In this document: piece by piece, positions 98 through 9,459 of the stretch
Layout of the letters: every line of letters begins with the position of its first letter
Numbering within the stretch: the stretch's first letter is position 1
From: Candidatus Peribacteraceae bacterium
GTDB taxonomy: Bacteria; Patescibacteriota; Gracilibacteria; JAHISY01
DNA length: 36,257 bases
NCBI GenBank assembly: GCA_021734705.1
Contig: JAIPIJ010000005.1
Span: 1 to 36,257, forward strand
Direction: 5' to 3'
Made by a program: the position numbers and the translations under genes
The notes under the pieces: generated by a model
What the model was told of the DNA's origin: nothing
What the model saw: the letters and a program-made list of their open reading frames with translations, nothing else
Database searches by the model: none

Positions 98-144
98 TCT
101 TTAAAAGAAAACCCCCTCGCCAGGGATAAATCCAACGAGGGGGT
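98..144 (-). terminator. Intrinsic terminator of the minus-strand RNA
   Basis: A perfect 9-bp stem (111-119 with 136-144, ACCCCCTCG/CGAGGGGGT) has a 16-nt loop. On the minus strand it is followed by TTTTCTTTT. On the plus strand no T-tract follows, so it points to minus-strand transcription. Confidence 0.7.
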
Positions 145-565
145 AATTCCGCTTGAAGGAAATTTGCGCGTTCAGATTAGTATCAAACCTGAAGCGAAAA
201 GATACAGCTTCTAGCGGGATGCGTGAGGGTCCAAGCTCTCGCGTTCCCACTTTTCTTCGGTAGATTGTGAGGAGCTACCTCTCCGTTTTTGGCGAAAATT
301 TGGTGTGTATTTTTGCCGCAAACTCTTATCCGCAGAACGGATGAAGAAATGCCTTTCGGTAGGCGGGATCATTCGGCATGATCCGCTATCGAAAAGTAGG
401 AAGTGAGCCCGGTAAATAGGCATTTGCCACGGACTCTGCCGAAAAAATCGACAGGACTCGGGACGAACCCGAAAGCCAAAACAAACAAAATCTGACCGGA
501 CTCGCTTCCTACCCGAAAGGATTTTTTTAGATGTGAAGAGTTCTTTTTGTTTTTAGTTTTGAACT
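100..565 (-). ncRNA. Unidentified structured RNA with its own promoter and terminator
   Basis: Read on the minus strand, this stretch lies between a consensus promoter (600-572) and a hairpin plus U-tract (144-98), predicting a transcript of about 465 nt. It is rich in complementary segments. GUAGGAAG and CUUCCUAC, plus GAGUCCGGU and ACCGGGCUC, close a stem of about 18 bp with one mismatch around positions 390-515. Inside it are CUGUCGA/UCGGCAG and a CGGG/CCCG hairpin. Near the 3' end a GAAGC/GCUUC hairpin and a UUCAG/CUGAA hairpin carry complementary loops (GUAUC and GAUAC), suggesting a pseudoknot. The only sizeable minus ORF (70 codons) resembles nothing I know. I see no CCA-ended tRNA-like domain (tmRNA) and no recognisable P4 core of RNase P RNA, so the class is unknown. 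The structure was read by eye, not computed. Confidence 0.6.
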
Positions 566-571
566 GTTTAT

Positions 572-600
572 ATTATATCAAATTTTTATAAAAAAGTCAA
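572..600 (-). promoter_or_regulatory. Strong sigma70-type promoter of the minus-strand RNA
   Basis: On the minus strand TTGACT (600-595) is followed by exactly 17 nt and then TATAAT (577-572). That is 11 of 12 consensus bases with ideal spacing, the best promoter in the window. Transcription would start near 565, with no convincing ORF downstream. Confidence 0.75.
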
Positions 601-734: not shown

Positions 735-1313
735 ATGCCTGGAAAACTTTTTCTTATCGTTGGCCCGAGTGGTGTCGGCAAAGGTACGCTAGTGCGGGCT
801 TTGCGCGAGCGCCATCCCGAGTTTTATTTCCCACCGTCAGCTACGACGCGGTCACCGCGCGATGGGGAAGAGGAGGGGCGCCAATATTTTTTCGTGTCCG
901 AAGAGCGCTTCGCCAAAATGAAAGCCGAAGGAAAATTTCTGGAGACGGCGACTGTCCACGAGACGGAAAATTATGGCCTGCTACGTGAACCGATCGAAGA
1001 GGCAATTCGTGCCGGGAAAGTAATTATTCGTGAGGTTGATATTCAGGGTTTGCATTCGGTCCATGAGAATCTCGATAAATCTAAATTCGCGGCGATTTTT
1101 TTACTGCCGCCGGATTTCGAAATCTTGCGTAAAAGAATTCTCAAGCGCCAACCACAGATGCCGGACGCCGAGCTGGAGCACAGGCTGGAGTCTGCTGAAA
1201 AGGAATTATCGCAAAAAGAGTTAGCTGACTTTGAAGTTGTCTCGGGAGAAGACGAGATCGACAAAATGGTTGCCGACGTTGAGAAAATTATATCTGATGC
1301 GACCCGGGATTAA
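735..1313 (+). CDS. gmk: Guanylate kinase
   Basis: Phosphorylates GMP to GDP with ATP, in cytoplasmic purine nucleotide metabolism. The 192-residue product starts almost directly with the P-loop GPSGVGKGT (residues 10-18). It is followed by the GMP-binding segment TTRSPRDGEEEGRQYFF, with the conserved Ser/Arg/Tyr pattern, and later the LPPDFEILRKRI region typical of the family. Length is normal. The ATG at 735 is preceded by CTTAAAA and no Shine-Dalgarno sequence. The stop overlaps the stop of convergent ftsX by 4 nt (TTAA), leaving no room for a terminator between them. Confidence 0.96.
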   Translation: MPGKLFLIVGPSGVGKGTLVRALRERHPEFYFPPSATTRSPRDGEEEGRQYFFVSEERFAKMKAEGKFLETATVHETENYGLLREPIEEAIRAGKVIIREVDIQGLHSVHENLDKSKFAAIFLLPPDFEILRKRILKRQPQMPDAELEHRLESAEKELSQKELADFEVVSGEDEIDKMVADVEKIISDATRD

Positions 1314-4549: not shown

Positions 4550-5308
4550 ATGCCACCTGGAAAATTTATCGCCAAAGTAGCTGGCCACCGCGAACTAGCG
4601 CGGGATATTTTCGAAAAGACTTTTGAACTAGTGGAGCCAACTGAGATTTCCTACGATGCCGGGAATTACGTTTCTGTCCGCGTGATGGATGGCAAAATGC
4701 CGATTGTTTTTCGAGCCTATACTTTCGCGACTGACGGTAGTGATGGCCAGAGTTTCAAAATTATCTTTAAGGTTTTTCGTGATGAATCTGGGACTGAAGG
4801 GCGGGGGAGTGGTTACTTGAAAAACTTGAAACCGGGGGAAAGTGCCGAGTTCTTTGGGCCGGCGGGGATGGGTAGCTTCGTGCCTAAGCGAGGTGACGAT
4901 TCGCCACTTTTTTTGCTTGGGACGGGCACGGGCATTGCGCCGCTTTTTGCCGTGGCTACGAAGCTCACGCGTGCAAAGTCGCCTCGTTTGATTAAACTTT
5001 TCCTGGGAGTTTCCTATATCGAAGAAGTTTTTTACTTGGCTGAATTTGAGAAGCTTAAATCTGAGAACCCAAACTTTGACTTTACGATTGCGGTTTCTCG
5101 CCCGCCTGAAGATTTGGATTCGGCACAGGCAAGAATTAATTTTGAGGCTGGACGCCTAACAGCAGTTTTGGATACGATTGAAATTCCAAAAAATCTAGAG
5201 GCTTTGGTTTGCGGTTCTGAGGTCTCTACTTTAGGTATCAGGAAAAAACTCTTAGAGCTTGGTGTGCCCGAAAAAAATATTGACGCTGAAGGTTACGGAG
5301 AGGTTTGA
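4550..5308 (+). CDS. Ferredoxin-NADP reductase-type flavin oxidoreductase
   Basis: A 252-residue FAD/NAD(P)-dependent oxidoreductase. The N-terminal beta-barrel carries the FAD motif RAYTFA (RxYS/T type). GPAGMGSF and the nucleotide-binding GTGTGIAPLF follow, and the C-terminal CGSEVSTLGIRKKL with an EGYG ending closes the family fold. Electron partner and substrate are unknown; no ferredoxin gene is next to it. The ATG lies 1 nt after the gatA stop in AAATTTAAAATG, so the two are probably co-transcribed. It ends in TGA, evidence for the standard code. Its 3' end overlaps the surface-protein gene on the other strand by 16 nt. Confidence 0.85.
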   Translation: MPPGKFIAKVAGHRELARDIFEKTFELVEPTEISYDAGNYVSVRVMDGKMPIVFRAYTFATDGSDGQSFKIIFKVFRDESGTEGRGSGYLKNLKPGESAEFFGPAGMGSFVPKRGDDSPLFLLGTGTGIAPLFAVATKLTRAKSPRLIKLFLGVSYIEEVFYLAEFEKLKSENPNFDFTIAVSRPPEDLDSAQARINFEAGRLTAVLDTIEIPKNLEALVCGSEVSTLGIRKKLLELGVPEKNIDAEGYGEV

Positions 5309-8300
5309 CGGCGGCGGCGGAAAATCCAGATTCCCAGAATACCGGCTGCGAGTAAAATGCCTCCGACCAGGGCGATTTGTTGTGCATTAAGGCTCTCAAC
5401 TTCTTCTGGGGCAGCTTGTTTTGGCGGAGGGTCGACAGTCTCGAATTCGATGATGCGAGCAGGGGAGCGCGTGCCGTCCACCAGCTCGGTAAAAATGATA
5501 AGTTTATGTTTCCCGATTGGCAATTCGCTTGCTGGACGCACAACGAAATCTCCCAGCACATTATCGACACAAACTGCGACAGCTAGGCCATCGAAGAAGG
5601 CAATCACTCGACCATCGTAAAAAGTGTTCCCGAAAAAGGCCGGCTTACCGTCTTCAAAGATATTTGATTCTCCGAGAAAAACTTTGGGCGGGGTCAGGAC
5701 AAAATCCAGATCGATTTGGACTTTACGCGTGGCTAGGATATTTACACCTTCACGGATTTCGAACCGATAGATTCCTGCTGGCAGGGCGGTCTGGCTCAAG
5801 ATTTGGAAATTACCGCGCGAATCAGTTGTCGCCTCGCCTAGGGTAATTTCAGCATCATCCGGGCTTACTGCGACTATTTGGATTTTTGAGTTGGCAGTTG
5901 CAATTCCTGTCAAAAATGGCTGCGGGCTGGTTACTTTGGTATTGAGCCGGCTAAATCCTGTTGCTGTTGGGACATCCTCTATAGTTGGATCGCTGCCGAG
6001 TTTCAAGAACTCATCTCCGTCAGAATTACCGTCTCCGTCAGAATCTGCCACGAACGGATTACTGCCGAGATCAATTTCTAGGCAGTCAACAATACCGTCA
6101 TTGTCTGAATCACGCATGCCGAGAGAAAGCTCTCCGATACGGTAGGTGTCACCGCTTTTTTGTAACGCAATTGAATTTAAATCCAAAAATTCACGTAGGC
6201 GGCTGACTGCTTCAGTCGGTGTCTTGGCCAGTAAGGTAGAGACCTCAGCTATAGTCAGAAAATCATCAAGGGAGAAGTTTTTGATTGCTAGTTCGCTGGC
6301 GAGTTTTTCAAGTTTAACCGCGGAGAATTTTTCGCGACTAACTAATTCACGAATTTCCTGCGCTATTTCAAGTGCGTCATTCAGTTTGTCGATTTCTACA
6401 TCTGTCGGAATTTTGTCTAGCGGCAGGATAGCAGGATTGGCTTTTTCGAGGGCTTCTGCATCACGAGTAGAAACCCCCCAGACACTCAGGCCCTTGAGCC
6501 TTTGAGCGATCGTATCGCGGAGTTCTTTGAATGAGGAATTTTCGGCTTCGATTAATTCGATCAATTCACTTGAATTAGCTGGCAGCCTAGAGACGACTAT
6601 GCCGGCTGATTTGCGCTGGCCGCTAACCCCCTCAAATTCGAAGATTATTTTCTGAGTACCGAATTCTTCAGTCGGAATTCGGAATTCTTTTTCGGCGTAG
6701 TCTTCCCATTCTCCATCAGCTAGCCTCATTTTGACCGCTCCGGTGGCGTAGGGCTTCACATTTACAAAAGCCTTCTTGGTGATGTATTTACCTTCACTGA
6801 GTTGGGCTGGATACATGACGGTGATCCCAGCTTCATGAACGTTGCCGTCAGAGACTTCACTCAGATCCGCTTCAGGATTTACCAAGATTAACCCGGCGCG
6901 ATCAATTAGTAGTCCAATGATAGAGATAATTTCAGGTACCTCATCTTCATAGGCGATCTCAATTTCTGCTGTCGGGACGTCTAAAGCGGGGATTTCGAGC
7001 ATACGCCCATCGGCAAAATAGATCAGTAAAACATCATTGGAAGTAATCACTTCAGAGAAATGCAATTCAAGCTTGCTTTTGTCTTCAGAGTTTTTTATTT
7101 TTGCGAGACGGGGAGGAGTCTTATCATAATTAACTACGAAGACGGTTTCGCCATCGCGTTCGCCATTGGCGCCTTCGGCGCGCAAATGGAGATAGCTTTC
7201 ACCTTCGCTGACACGGATATCATCTAGGAAGAAATCAGTTGTGAATTTAGTATCTTCCGTGATTTTACGCAGTGAGCTTGCTGCCGGATTTTTATCCAGC
7301 GTGTAGTAAAACTTCTCACCGATGCCACTCCAAGCGAAGGAGATGAGATCATCATTGCCGATATCAGCAGGGGAGAACCACTCGCCACTGACAAATTCAG
7401 CTCGGCGCTCTATGCCGGAACCGACAGCAATTTTTTTGATACCGACTAGTTTGACCTCTTTGATGCCGACAACTGCAAAGAGGGTCATATGATCAACCCA
7501 AACCGAAATTGTATCACCGTCCGAATCGATTTCGCCACCAGCTTTGCCGCTCTTCGCATCTACGGTCGTGATCCATTCGTTTTGCGCTTCGTCAAAATGG
7601 CGGATTTGCGGATTTTTCTTATTATTGATTGGCAAAGTCAGGAGCACTGGTTTGTCGAAGCTAATTGATCCGCTTGAGCTACCGACAAAAACTGCGTCCT
7701 CAAGCTCTAGGTTATTATCAGCCGTCGGCGGGGGAGCCTCGACTACCTCCGGTGCGTAGATGACGTATTCATAACTTCCTCCGCCACCTCCAGCGCCAGA
7801 GCTTACATTTGTAGCGGCTGAAATTTTTACTTTAGCCGAGGTTTTATCTGAAACGAGCTCAACCTCGACTGGGATTTGTCCGCCAGTTTTTGGTAAGACC
7901 GCCTTAGAGGTTTTTAGTTCGGTGATTTGCTTTTCCAATTTTTTAGCTTCAATTACGCGCACCTCGAGATTATTCTTGACGGATTCATCGACGTTCACAG
8001 TGCCCGTTGTCCCACTTGCGTCTACTGTAACATCGCGAATGCTTTTCCAAACATTTTGCGTTGTGTCGACATAACCGACTTCGATAATTTTTGTATCCTC
8101 AGCTTCTTCAGAATCTTGGAGATCTAGAGTTGTTTCGGCCGCGGTATTAACTTCTTCGATTGCTGCACTGAGATCTACTGTTTGGGTTATTACTTTTGTT
8201 TCGGCTATAGTCGTAGTCTCTAGGAGAGTTGGTTCTTCTGTAGTCTCTAAGGCGGCGGCATGAACGGGCTCCTCGTAAATAGTGGAGTCAGTCAGAACAT

Positions 8301-9459
8301 CGGATTCGTAGCCAAAACTGTTTGAGAACTTAATTGAAATTGTTTTCAGGCCCTCGTCTGTGCTGCAACTTAAGATGCTGTAGTCTGCATCATTGCCGGA
8401 GTTTAATTCGGAATCTGTCGGGTAGGTGATCCAGTCGGTCCAATTGACTCCAGCGTCACAACTCAAAGCCAATTTTTCAGCTTCATTGATTGCCCCCAGC
8501 TGCATGATCGGAGTTGAATCACTGGTTACCCCATCTTCATCGATTATCTCAAAATAGGAGGCGGTCGGAGCGCTAACGGAAAAGAAAAACGGCTGTATGC
8601 CGATATCTTTGTTGTAGCCTAGAGAGCCTTCCGCTCCTGGTTCGGGTAAAGTTAGATTGGCCGCTTTGCCGTTAGCCAAGCCGATAGTGCCGTCGGCTAG
8701 AGACAGTGCAGTTGTCGAGGCGTAGTCCAATTCTGCACCTTCGGTATTTTCTTCACCCTGAATTTCATAGTCAAAAGTTAGCGTGTCTGTACCGCTACCA
8801 CTAGTATAGGTCGCAGTTCCACCATTATTCAAAGCTAGCGTGGGTGTACCGGTCACGTATACATTTCCCGTAAATTCGACTTCTATAGAGATAGTCTTGC
8901 CAACCCAGTAACTGCCGTCGCCCGTCGAACTTGTAACATTCAAAACTACCGGGATGATATTCACCAAGACTTGAATATCATTATCAACCAGGGCTGTCGC
9001 CATGCCGTAATCTAAAACCGTGCTATTAGAATTACGGGTAGTTATGCGGACAGAATATTGCCCCTCGACCGCCGGATTTGTAATTCCACCATCGGCGATA
9101 GCAAGCTCTACCGATCCAGCTGAAAAATCCTCAGTCAGCGCGAGTGTGATTTTTTTATTAGCATTAGAGTAGGAAATATCAGCTGTCGGTCCGACTGGCA
9201 CGATTATATCGCTTGCTGAAGCTAAATCAAAGCTAAAGTCGGGAAAACGCAGCTCGATGGTGTTCCCCGAAACCAGATCGCTTTTTGTGGTGAAGGCGAT
9301 TGAGTGTGCACTTGTCTCTCCGGCGCTTGGGTTAGCTAGTGTATCACCGCCAATTTCGAGTGCCGCCGCCGTAGCTGCCGGTGGAAGCTGAATAATCAAA
9401 AGCGCAAGAGCAATTAGTGCGGCTAAAGATTTTCGAAATTTGGTTAGAACCCTCTCCAA
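5293..9459 (-). CDS. Giant secreted, membrane-anchored surface protein
   Basis: A 1388-residue protein with a Sec signal peptide (residues 1 to about 31: basic start, hydrophobic core, ATAAA). Beta-rich extracellular modules follow, including an adhesin-like segment near 210-285 (VTGTPTLALNNGGTATYTSG) and a Gly-rich linker near 555-562. Residues ~1115-1155 hold acidic thrombospondin type-3-like calcium-binding motifs (DSDNDGIVD, DSDGDGNSDGDEF). A transmembrane helix at ~1360-1382 is followed by RRRR. It probably sits on the cell surface, perhaps for adhesion; function is inferred only. The start is TTG at 9459 after ACAAAAA; no in-frame ATG lies between it and the upstream stop. Confidence 0.85.
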   Translation of the reverse strand: MERVLTKFRKSLAALIALALLIIQLPPAATAAALEIGGDTLANPSAGETSAHSIAFTTKSDLVSGNTIELRFPDFSFDLASASDIIVPVGPTADISYSNANKKITLALTEDFSAGSVELAIADGGITNPAVEGQYSVRITTRNSNSTVLDYGMATALVDNDIQVLVNIIPVVLNVTSSTGDGSYWVGKTISIEVEFTGNVYVTGTPTLALNNGGTATYTSGSGTDTLTFDYEIQGEENTEGAELDYASTTALSLADGTIGLANGKAANLTLPEPGAEGSLGYNKDIGIQPFFFSVSAPTASYFEIIDEDGVTSDSTPIMQLGAINEAEKLALSCDAGVNWTDWITYPTDSELNSGNDADYSILSCSTDEGLKTISIKFSNSFGYESDVLTDSTIYEEPVHAAALETTEEPTLLETTTIAETKVITQTVDLSAAIEEVNTAAETTLDLQDSEEAEDTKIIEVGYVDTTQNVWKSIRDVTVDASGTTGTVNVDESVKNNLEVRVIEAKKLEKQITELKTSKAVLPKTGGQIPVEVELVSDKTSAKVKISAATNVSSGAGGGGGSYEYVIYAPEVVEAPPPTADNNLELEDAVFVGSSSGSISFDKPVLLTLPINNKKNPQIRHFDEAQNEWITTVDAKSGKAGGEIDSDGDTISVWVDHMTLFAVVGIKEVKLVGIKKIAVGSGIERRAEFVSGEWFSPADIGNDDLISFAWSGIGEKFYYTLDKNPAASSLRKITEDTKFTTDFFLDDIRVSEGESYLHLRAEGANGERDGETVFVVNYDKTPPRLAKIKNSEDKSKLELHFSEVITSNDVLLIYFADGRMLEIPALDVPTAEIEIAYEDEVPEIISIIGLLIDRAGLILVNPEADLSEVSDGNVHEAGITVMYPAQLSEGKYITKKAFVNVKPYATGAVKMRLADGEWEDYAEKEFRIPTEEFGTQKIIFEFEGVSGQRKSAGIVVSRLPANSSELIELIEAENSSFKELRDTIAQRLKGLSVWGVSTRDAEALEKANPAILPLDKIPTDVEIDKLNDALEIAQEIRELVSREKFSAVKLEKLASELAIKNFSLDDFLTIAEVSTLLAKTPTEAVSRLREFLDLNSIALQKSGDTYRIGELSLGMRDSDNDGIVDCLEIDLGSNPFVADSDGDGNSDGDEFLKLGSDPTIEDVPTATGFSRLNTKVTSPQPFLTGIATANSKIQIVAVSPDDAEITLGEATTDSRGNFQILSQTALPAGIYRFEIREGVNILATRKVQIDLDFVLTPPKVFLGESNIFEDGKPAFFGNTFYDGRVIAFFDGLAVAVCVDNVLGDFVVRPASELPIGKHKLIIFTELVDGTRSPARIIEFETVDPPPKQAAPEEVESLNAQQIALVGGILLAAGILGIWIFRRRRQTSP

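Follow-up and report, generated by a model that had tools for sequence, protein, structure and literature searches.

A putative stand-alone structured RNA beside gmk, with a covarying pseudoknot and kissing loop, in Candidatus Peregrinibacteria and probably other CPR lineages

Introduction

Among the described bacterial RNAs, ROOL and GOLLD are large, stand-alone and structured, with covarying kissing loops that are intermolecular, pseudoknots, long linkers and no known function (PMC12286853). The RNA reported here, encoded beside gmk in a Candidatus Peribacteraceae bacterium, resembles them in being a large stand-alone structured RNA with a covarying kissing loop, a pseudoknot and long linkers, whereas ROOL and GOLLD are phage- or prophage-encoded near tRNA islands, and the gmk-side RNA is shorter, vertically inherited alongside gmk or dksA-lspA and without an Rfam match. 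OLE RNA offers a second likeness, being an ornate chromosomal RNA of about 500–600 nt whose biochemical role is unclear, but it is an RNA of Bacillota (PMC9723947, PMC12054373) and shows no sequence or Rfam match to the gmk-side RNA. 6S RNA (RF00013) is an abundant stand-alone RNA with alternative folds, and is a candidate for an RNA that works in a like manner; however, no 6S match was obtained in five of the six genomes searched, and the remaining genome (G008) carries a separate 6S-like match. Several pseudoknots, A-rich loops and a similar length are shared with tmRNA (RF00023), yet the gmk-side RNA lacks tRNA-like ends and any Rfam or ARAGORN call, and the true tmRNA lies elsewhere. No paper on this RNA or on structured non-coding RNAs of these lineages was found in the open-licence literature searched (preprints excluded), and, with no Rfam entry and none in that literature, the RNA represents a previously uncatalogued family of CPR bacteria.

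Results

Gene Anatomy of the gmk-Side RNA

The window, which is the whole stretch of DNA analysed (36,257 nt), carries on its minus strand a locus that the first-pass annotation had read, from sequence alone, as an unidentified structured RNA with its own near-consensus promoter and terminator. This overall reading was supported by all tests run, without transcript data. The elements of the gene, in window coordinates, are as follows.

600..572, minus strand: promoter TTGACT-17-TATAAT, 11/12 consensus with an extended -10 TG (sequence scan)
108..565, minus strand: predicted ncRNA transcript of about 460 nt, from promoter and terminator positions, start inferred about 7 nt past the -10
144..103, minus strand: intrinsic terminator, hairpin 144..111 and U-run (sequence scan)
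735..1313, plus strand: gmk, guanylate kinase, the divergent conserved neighbour outside the RNA (PF00625, E = 1.8e-31; synteny)

The claim that the promoter is the strongest of the window held, with 600..572 the only site that scores 11/12 and the rest of the whole window scoring 10 or less. Promoter-like sites are no more numerous in the region than in shuffles, and the RNA locus is placed above chance because its promoter, structure and place are conserved in relatives, not by the count of such sites. The claimed hairpin-plus-U terminator also held, its hairpin (144..111, minus strand) having 13 pairs, of which 8 are GC, followed by TTTCTTTT. Two related genomes, G004 and G003, are homologous to the transcript 108..565 along its length. 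This gene anatomy is shown by computation, and the minus strand of 108–600 is likely to be a stand-alone ncRNA gene with its own strong promoter and its own terminator, its transcription being inferred in the absence of transcript data.

Two side observations were made in the window. Bases 1–139 recur letter for letter at the beginning of contig C13 of the same genome (L022, G000:C13:1-139), an overlap in the assembly by which the two contigs connect immediately past the RNA terminator, and a minus-strand ORF of 1388 aa at 5293–9459 has, by eye only, the look of a large cell-surface or repeat protein.

Fold and Structural Elements of the Window's Copy

The predicted fold of the RNA has a minimum free energy of -165.7, against -123.7 ± 7.0 for dinucleotide shuffles (z = -6.04), and none of 100 shuffles was as good. 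The elements of the window's copy are listed below.

495..512, minus strand: 5' strand of a stem of about 18 bp, partner 396–413 (predicted fold)
396..413, minus strand: 3' strand of the same stem, overlapping S5 (predicted fold)
505..514, minus strand: 5' partner of S5, GGGUAGGAAG, alternative to S3 (score 21, p 0.005; swap-test covariation 362:83)
391..402, minus strand: S5, the central strand UUCCUACUUUUC, with a conserved GAU next to it (388–390); UACUUUUCGAU is nearly invariant
363..386, minus strand: hairpin H1, whose loop CCGA (373–376) makes the kissing contact with the H4 loop
352..363, minus strand: CCUACCGAAAGG, complementary to CCUUUCGGGUAGG at 508–520 (predicted fold)
259..284, minus strand: H-type pseudoknot, S1 GGAG 281–284/CUCC 271–274, S2 GGUAG 275–279/CUACC 259–263
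244..255, minus strand: S3, GAAAAGUGGGAA, pairing with S5 (swap test 441:43)
221..243, minus strand: hairpin H4, CGCGAGAG...CCUCACGC, whose loop UUGG (231–234) pairs with the H1 loop
213..217, minus strand: CCGCU, 5' strand of the 3'-domain stem, partner AGCGG 149–153; equivalent in homologs ACCGCUC...GAGCG
149..153, minus strand: AGCGG, 3' strand of the 3'-domain stem, partner CCGCU 213–217 (sequence and homologs)

Strong stems, including one of about 18 bp, had been claimed and were recovered: GUAGGAAGCGAGUCCGGU / ACCGGGCUCACUUCCUAC (512–495 with 413–396) is present in the predicted fold. The stem of CCUACCGAAAGG with CCUUUCGGGUAGG occurs in family f1 and was seen by eye in G003, G004 and G005. 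The possible pseudoknot of two loops held as the covarying H1–H4 kissing loop, which in the window's copy amounts to merely about 4 bp (CCGA/UUGG); the H-type pseudoknot at 284–259 had not been singled out.

Comparison with Known RNA Classes and Coding Potential

The claim that no known class fits was confirmed by the Rfam check: no family of Rfam 15 matched the window RNA at the gathering score, permissive searches of the window RNA (up to E = 10) and of a copy from outside the class gave chance-level matches alone, and scans of the window together with the homologs gave tRNAs, one neighbouring tmRNA and chance matches, with no OLE, ROOL or GOLLD. RNase P RNA (RF00010) was rejected, having no model match in the RNA, with the genome's own copy at G000:C6 (174.5 bits). 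tmRNA was likewise rejected, with no model match, no tRNA-like ends and no ARAGORN call, and the genome's own copy at G000:C4 (126.6 bits). The models for SRP RNA (RF00169, RF01854) and 6S RNA did not match the window RNA. The small and large SRP models also gave no match in 6 and 10 genomes, and the sensitivity of this search is limited, the B. subtilis control having been missed.

A very divergent form of a known housekeeping RNA (RNase P, tmRNA, 6S or SRP RNA), which had been offered as one possibility, is very unlikely. The promoter strength, single copy and conservation would agree with it, and the SRP slot looks empty in 6 to 10 genomes, a silence that proves little given the missed control. 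Against it, RNase P RNA and tmRNA both lie elsewhere in the same genome, so that it is not supported for either of these, a 6S-like match coexists with the RNA in G008, and the permissive Rfam searches gave chance matches. As separate observations, the SRP RNA of the window's genome and nine related genomes may be very divergent or lost, with the caveat of the same control, and the 6S-like RNA of G008 (L057, G008:C37:5884-6039) scores 40.9 bits, just below the Rfam cut-off.

The absence of a recognisable protein also held. The 70-codon ORF was rejected as a protein when its conservation was checked, with several in-frame stops in G003, of the same genus, and a frame break in G004, and the 49-codon ORF is not conserved between relatives.

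Homologs, Distribution and Synteny

Long matches in DNA searches were restricted to two of four same-genus genomes, and the spacers 5' of gmk in other families carry the same motifs despite low sequence identity. A covariance model (R1) was built from six sequences of such homologs, with G005 excluded after it was found misplaced in the first alignment (A1), and its search of 353 genomes of the class, many of the compared genomes being metagenome bins, gave 51 clear copies, single in each genome. The second model (R2), built from 47 copies, detected one clear copy each (E<1e-8) in 63 genomes, drawn from 14 families of Ca. Peregrinibacteria; the match in G326, which enters this count on its E-value, is without the S5 motif and must be regarded as doubtful. 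Further copies, weaker but gmk-adjacent, were found in family f9 with R2, and no clear copy was detected by the model in families f5, f7, f10, f14 and f22, where loss or divergence past the reach of the model is possible. The exact core pattern occurs in named records of Candidatus Peregrinibacteria and one of Candidatus Gracilibacteria. Conservation and synteny are shown by computation, and the distribution is well supported.

In most copies, a near-consensus promoter stands at the same place (TTGAAA-17-TATAAT with TG), and terminators were found in most homologs, with most RNA lengths between 310 and 570 nt (by a simple scan, of which some calls are off). The gmk gene is on the fetched DNA in 47 of the 51 loci, and the RNA is divergent from it in all 47. 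The next downstream gene is on the opposite strand in 40 cases versus the same strand in 19, the latter mainly in the outgroup, which is the set of copies outside the class.

Some matches were set aside. Weak model matches in G426, G439, G407, G446, G510, G637 and G699 have the look of coding or A-rich chance hits and were not counted, and short nucleotide matches to other genomes at query positions 20–80 reflect AT-rich promoter similarity, not homology.

The constant neighbour gmk, together with a dksA/traR-like gene and lspA in other lineages, would favour a cis-acting leader, attenuator or antisense element controlling gmk (in the outgroup, dksA-lspA). This explanation is nevertheless very unlikely: in almost every genome transcription would proceed away from gmk, to end at a terminator, the downstream gene is usually convergent, and a second related copy in the f20 genomes is not beside gmk. 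A cis-acting riboswitch or leader was rejected for want of a same-strand gene in such a role, with gmk divergent in 47 of 47 and the next gene mostly convergent. The RNA is most probably neither a leader, a peptide mRNA nor an antisense RNA of gmk.

Exceptions and additions to the common arrangement were also observed. In G304 (L116/L139; family f31), the RNA and gmk share a strand, the RNA coming first and a terminator separating the two, the order elsewhere being divergent. No RNA copy was detectable by model search in G001, a genome of the same genus that is 96% complete; there, nrdR lies upstream of gmk (L043), which may represent loss of the RNA, its relocation or an assembly gap. In the f20 genomes, the second related RNA lies away from gmk (L119, G046:C43; L120, G322:C16; L121, G323:C15; L122, G324:C56), with a core CUCUCUGCUUUGC ... 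GCAAGGCAG, an A-rich linker and a pseudoknot-like CCGUCG/CGACGG with GGUU/AACC, and may possibly be a paralogous sister family.

Conserved Architecture and Covariation

The conserved architecture comprises a core helix S5/S3 (12–13 bp, interrupted midway by a conserved U-C mismatch), an A-rich linker, the H-type pseudoknot and the kissing loop. Covariation on homologs upstream of gmk, a check that the first-pass annotation had proposed, revealed covarying helices across relatives. In the 47-sequence alignment, 95 double-sided compensatory cells were counted versus 33 ± 5 in shuffles, with none of 500 shuffles reaching 95, and the double-sided changes fall to 11–25 when the structures are slid as a control. 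In an all-against-all ranking corrected for column background, the proposed pairs stand at ranks 1, 4, 5, 7, 13, 15 and 16 of 17,766 column pairs. The pseudoknot varies in both stems, with GGAG/CUCC, GAUGA/UCAUC, GAACG/CGUUC, GGACG/CGUCC, GACC/GGUC and UGCG/CGCA in S1 and GGUG/CACC, GGUA/UACC and GGCA/UGCC in S2. The kissing loop H1/H4 occurs as CCAACA/UGUUGG, CCAACUA/UAGUUGG, CGACUA/UAGUCG, CGGCUA/UAGCCG, CGACGA/UCGUCG, UCGACUC/GAGUCGA and GGCCCUAAA/UUUAGGGCC, and the swap test of own versus other-family partners gave 1797:284, against 1007:877 to 1079:914 for three control regions. The covarying helices, the pseudoknot and the kissing loop are shown by computation, and the structure is well supported. 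Swap tests lessen the influence of common ancestry without eliminating it, and model the tree only in part; the repeat of the test in the outgroup is the best guard.

Copies outside the Class

The phylum-wide search gave weak matches beyond the class, and R2 applied to the order of one such match detected a series of homologs with E from 2e-6 to 0.03. These carry the same core (e.g., UUCUCCACUAUUC / GAACAGUGAGAA), the A-rich linker and the H1–H4 kissing loop, with a plain hairpin where the pseudoknot stands in Peregrinibacteria. Their kissing loop, which was not used in finding them, gave 159:17 in the swap test and shows new variants, namely UCUAACC/GGUUAGA, UCUAGUC/GACUAGA and AUUAAGUCG/CGACUUAAU. 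Because the model scores are low, the case for homology of the outgroup is carried mostly by the kissing loop and the common layout. The RNA extends far past the genus: at least 14 families of the class have it, as do, with the reservation of these low scores, other CPR lineages of the phylum, and the suggestion that it is lineage-specific held only in the sense of the CPR.

Downstream of the outgroup RNA (L159–L172) come a dksA/traR-like gene and lspA. This neighbourhood and that of gmk both have links to GTP/ppGpp or RNA polymerase biology, perhaps by coincidence.

S5 and Its Two Partners

The central strand S5 has two potential partners, and its pairings with S3 and with the 5' segment are mutually exclusive. 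Swap tests gave 441:43 for the 3' partner S3 and 362:83 for the 5' partner, with control regions at 175:107 and 165:171. A significant 5' partner was found in 39 of the 51 copies, being missing or weak in the other 12, and it is altogether absent in G008, because of which S5/S3 is taken as the universal pairing. By secondary-structure energies, from which those of the pseudoknot and the kissing loop are omitted, 16 of 18 tested RNAs favour the 5' state. The two partners of S5 suggest an ordered folding path or a switch, which remains inferred; because the 5' partner is weak or missing in 12 of the 51 copies and absent in G008, the switch could conceivably be a mere folding intermediate.

It is also possible that the S5/S3 pairing alone is functional, with the 5' complementarity either helping the RNA to fold or arising by chance from the pyrimidine richness of S5. 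The absence in G008, the 12 of 51 copies without a significant partner and the ease with which A/G-rich 5' regions match S5 speak for this reading, whereas the 5' partner tracks the changes in S5 (362:83 versus the controls), which speaks against it.

Discussion

The preferred interpretation, held as likely, is that of a new RNA family of trans-acting, RNP-type ornate RNAs with a two-state core, for which transcription, strand exchange, action in trans and a protein partner are all inferred. In the proposed mechanism, the core helix S5/S3 would enclose hairpin H1, the A-rich linkers and the H-type pseudoknot, and the contact of the H1 loop with the loop of H4, which lies behind S3, would lock the two halves. 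S5 would alternatively pair with the 5' segment; during transcription the 5' hairpin may form first, and once S3 and the pseudoknot have been made, the S5 strand would be handed from its 5' partner to S3, which is the simplest reading. The product would be a stable, abundant, trans-acting RNA, probably in a protein complex, as a housekeeping or global regulatory RNP. Other conserved RNAs of comparable size make such a complex likely by analogy, and no partner is known.

A competing explanation is an RNA-only homo-oligomer of the ROOL, GOLLD or OLE type, in which H1–H4 kissing and/or S5 pairing would join copies by domain swap into a multimeric particle. In its favour, ROOL and GOLLD have covarying kissing loops that were shown to join separate molecules (PMC12286853), and in the gmk-side RNA the kissing loop is conserved, the linkers are A-rich and single-stranded, and the central strand can pair with either of two partners. 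Against it, the RNA keeps a fixed place in the chromosome, with housekeeping genes as neighbours rather than a phage setting near tRNA islands, the short distance between H1 and H4 would let them touch within one molecule, and there are no oligomer data; it is considered unlikely. A bolder reading, for which confidence is equally low, holds that this is an ancient CPR RNA, vertically inherited since before the classes of the radiation diverged, and that it builds a particle made of RNA alone or scaffolded by RNA, with the H1–H4 contact and the exchangeable S5 strand joining copies.

Under the preferred reading of a trans-acting RNP, as under the others, the molecular role is inferred. Large structured RNAs that persist through long evolution usually serve a central task, and newly found examples as large as this one are rare. 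The hosts are parasitic or symbiotic ultra-small bacteria with genomes of about 1 Mb, in which little dispensable RNA is expected. From the covarying pseudoknot and kissing loop follow exact predictions of structure that can be tested, and CPR metatranscriptomes can be searched at once with the covariance model as a marker. Should the bolder reading prove true, unlikely as it is, the RNA would be an ornate RNA machine of a new kind, confined to ultra-small bacteria.
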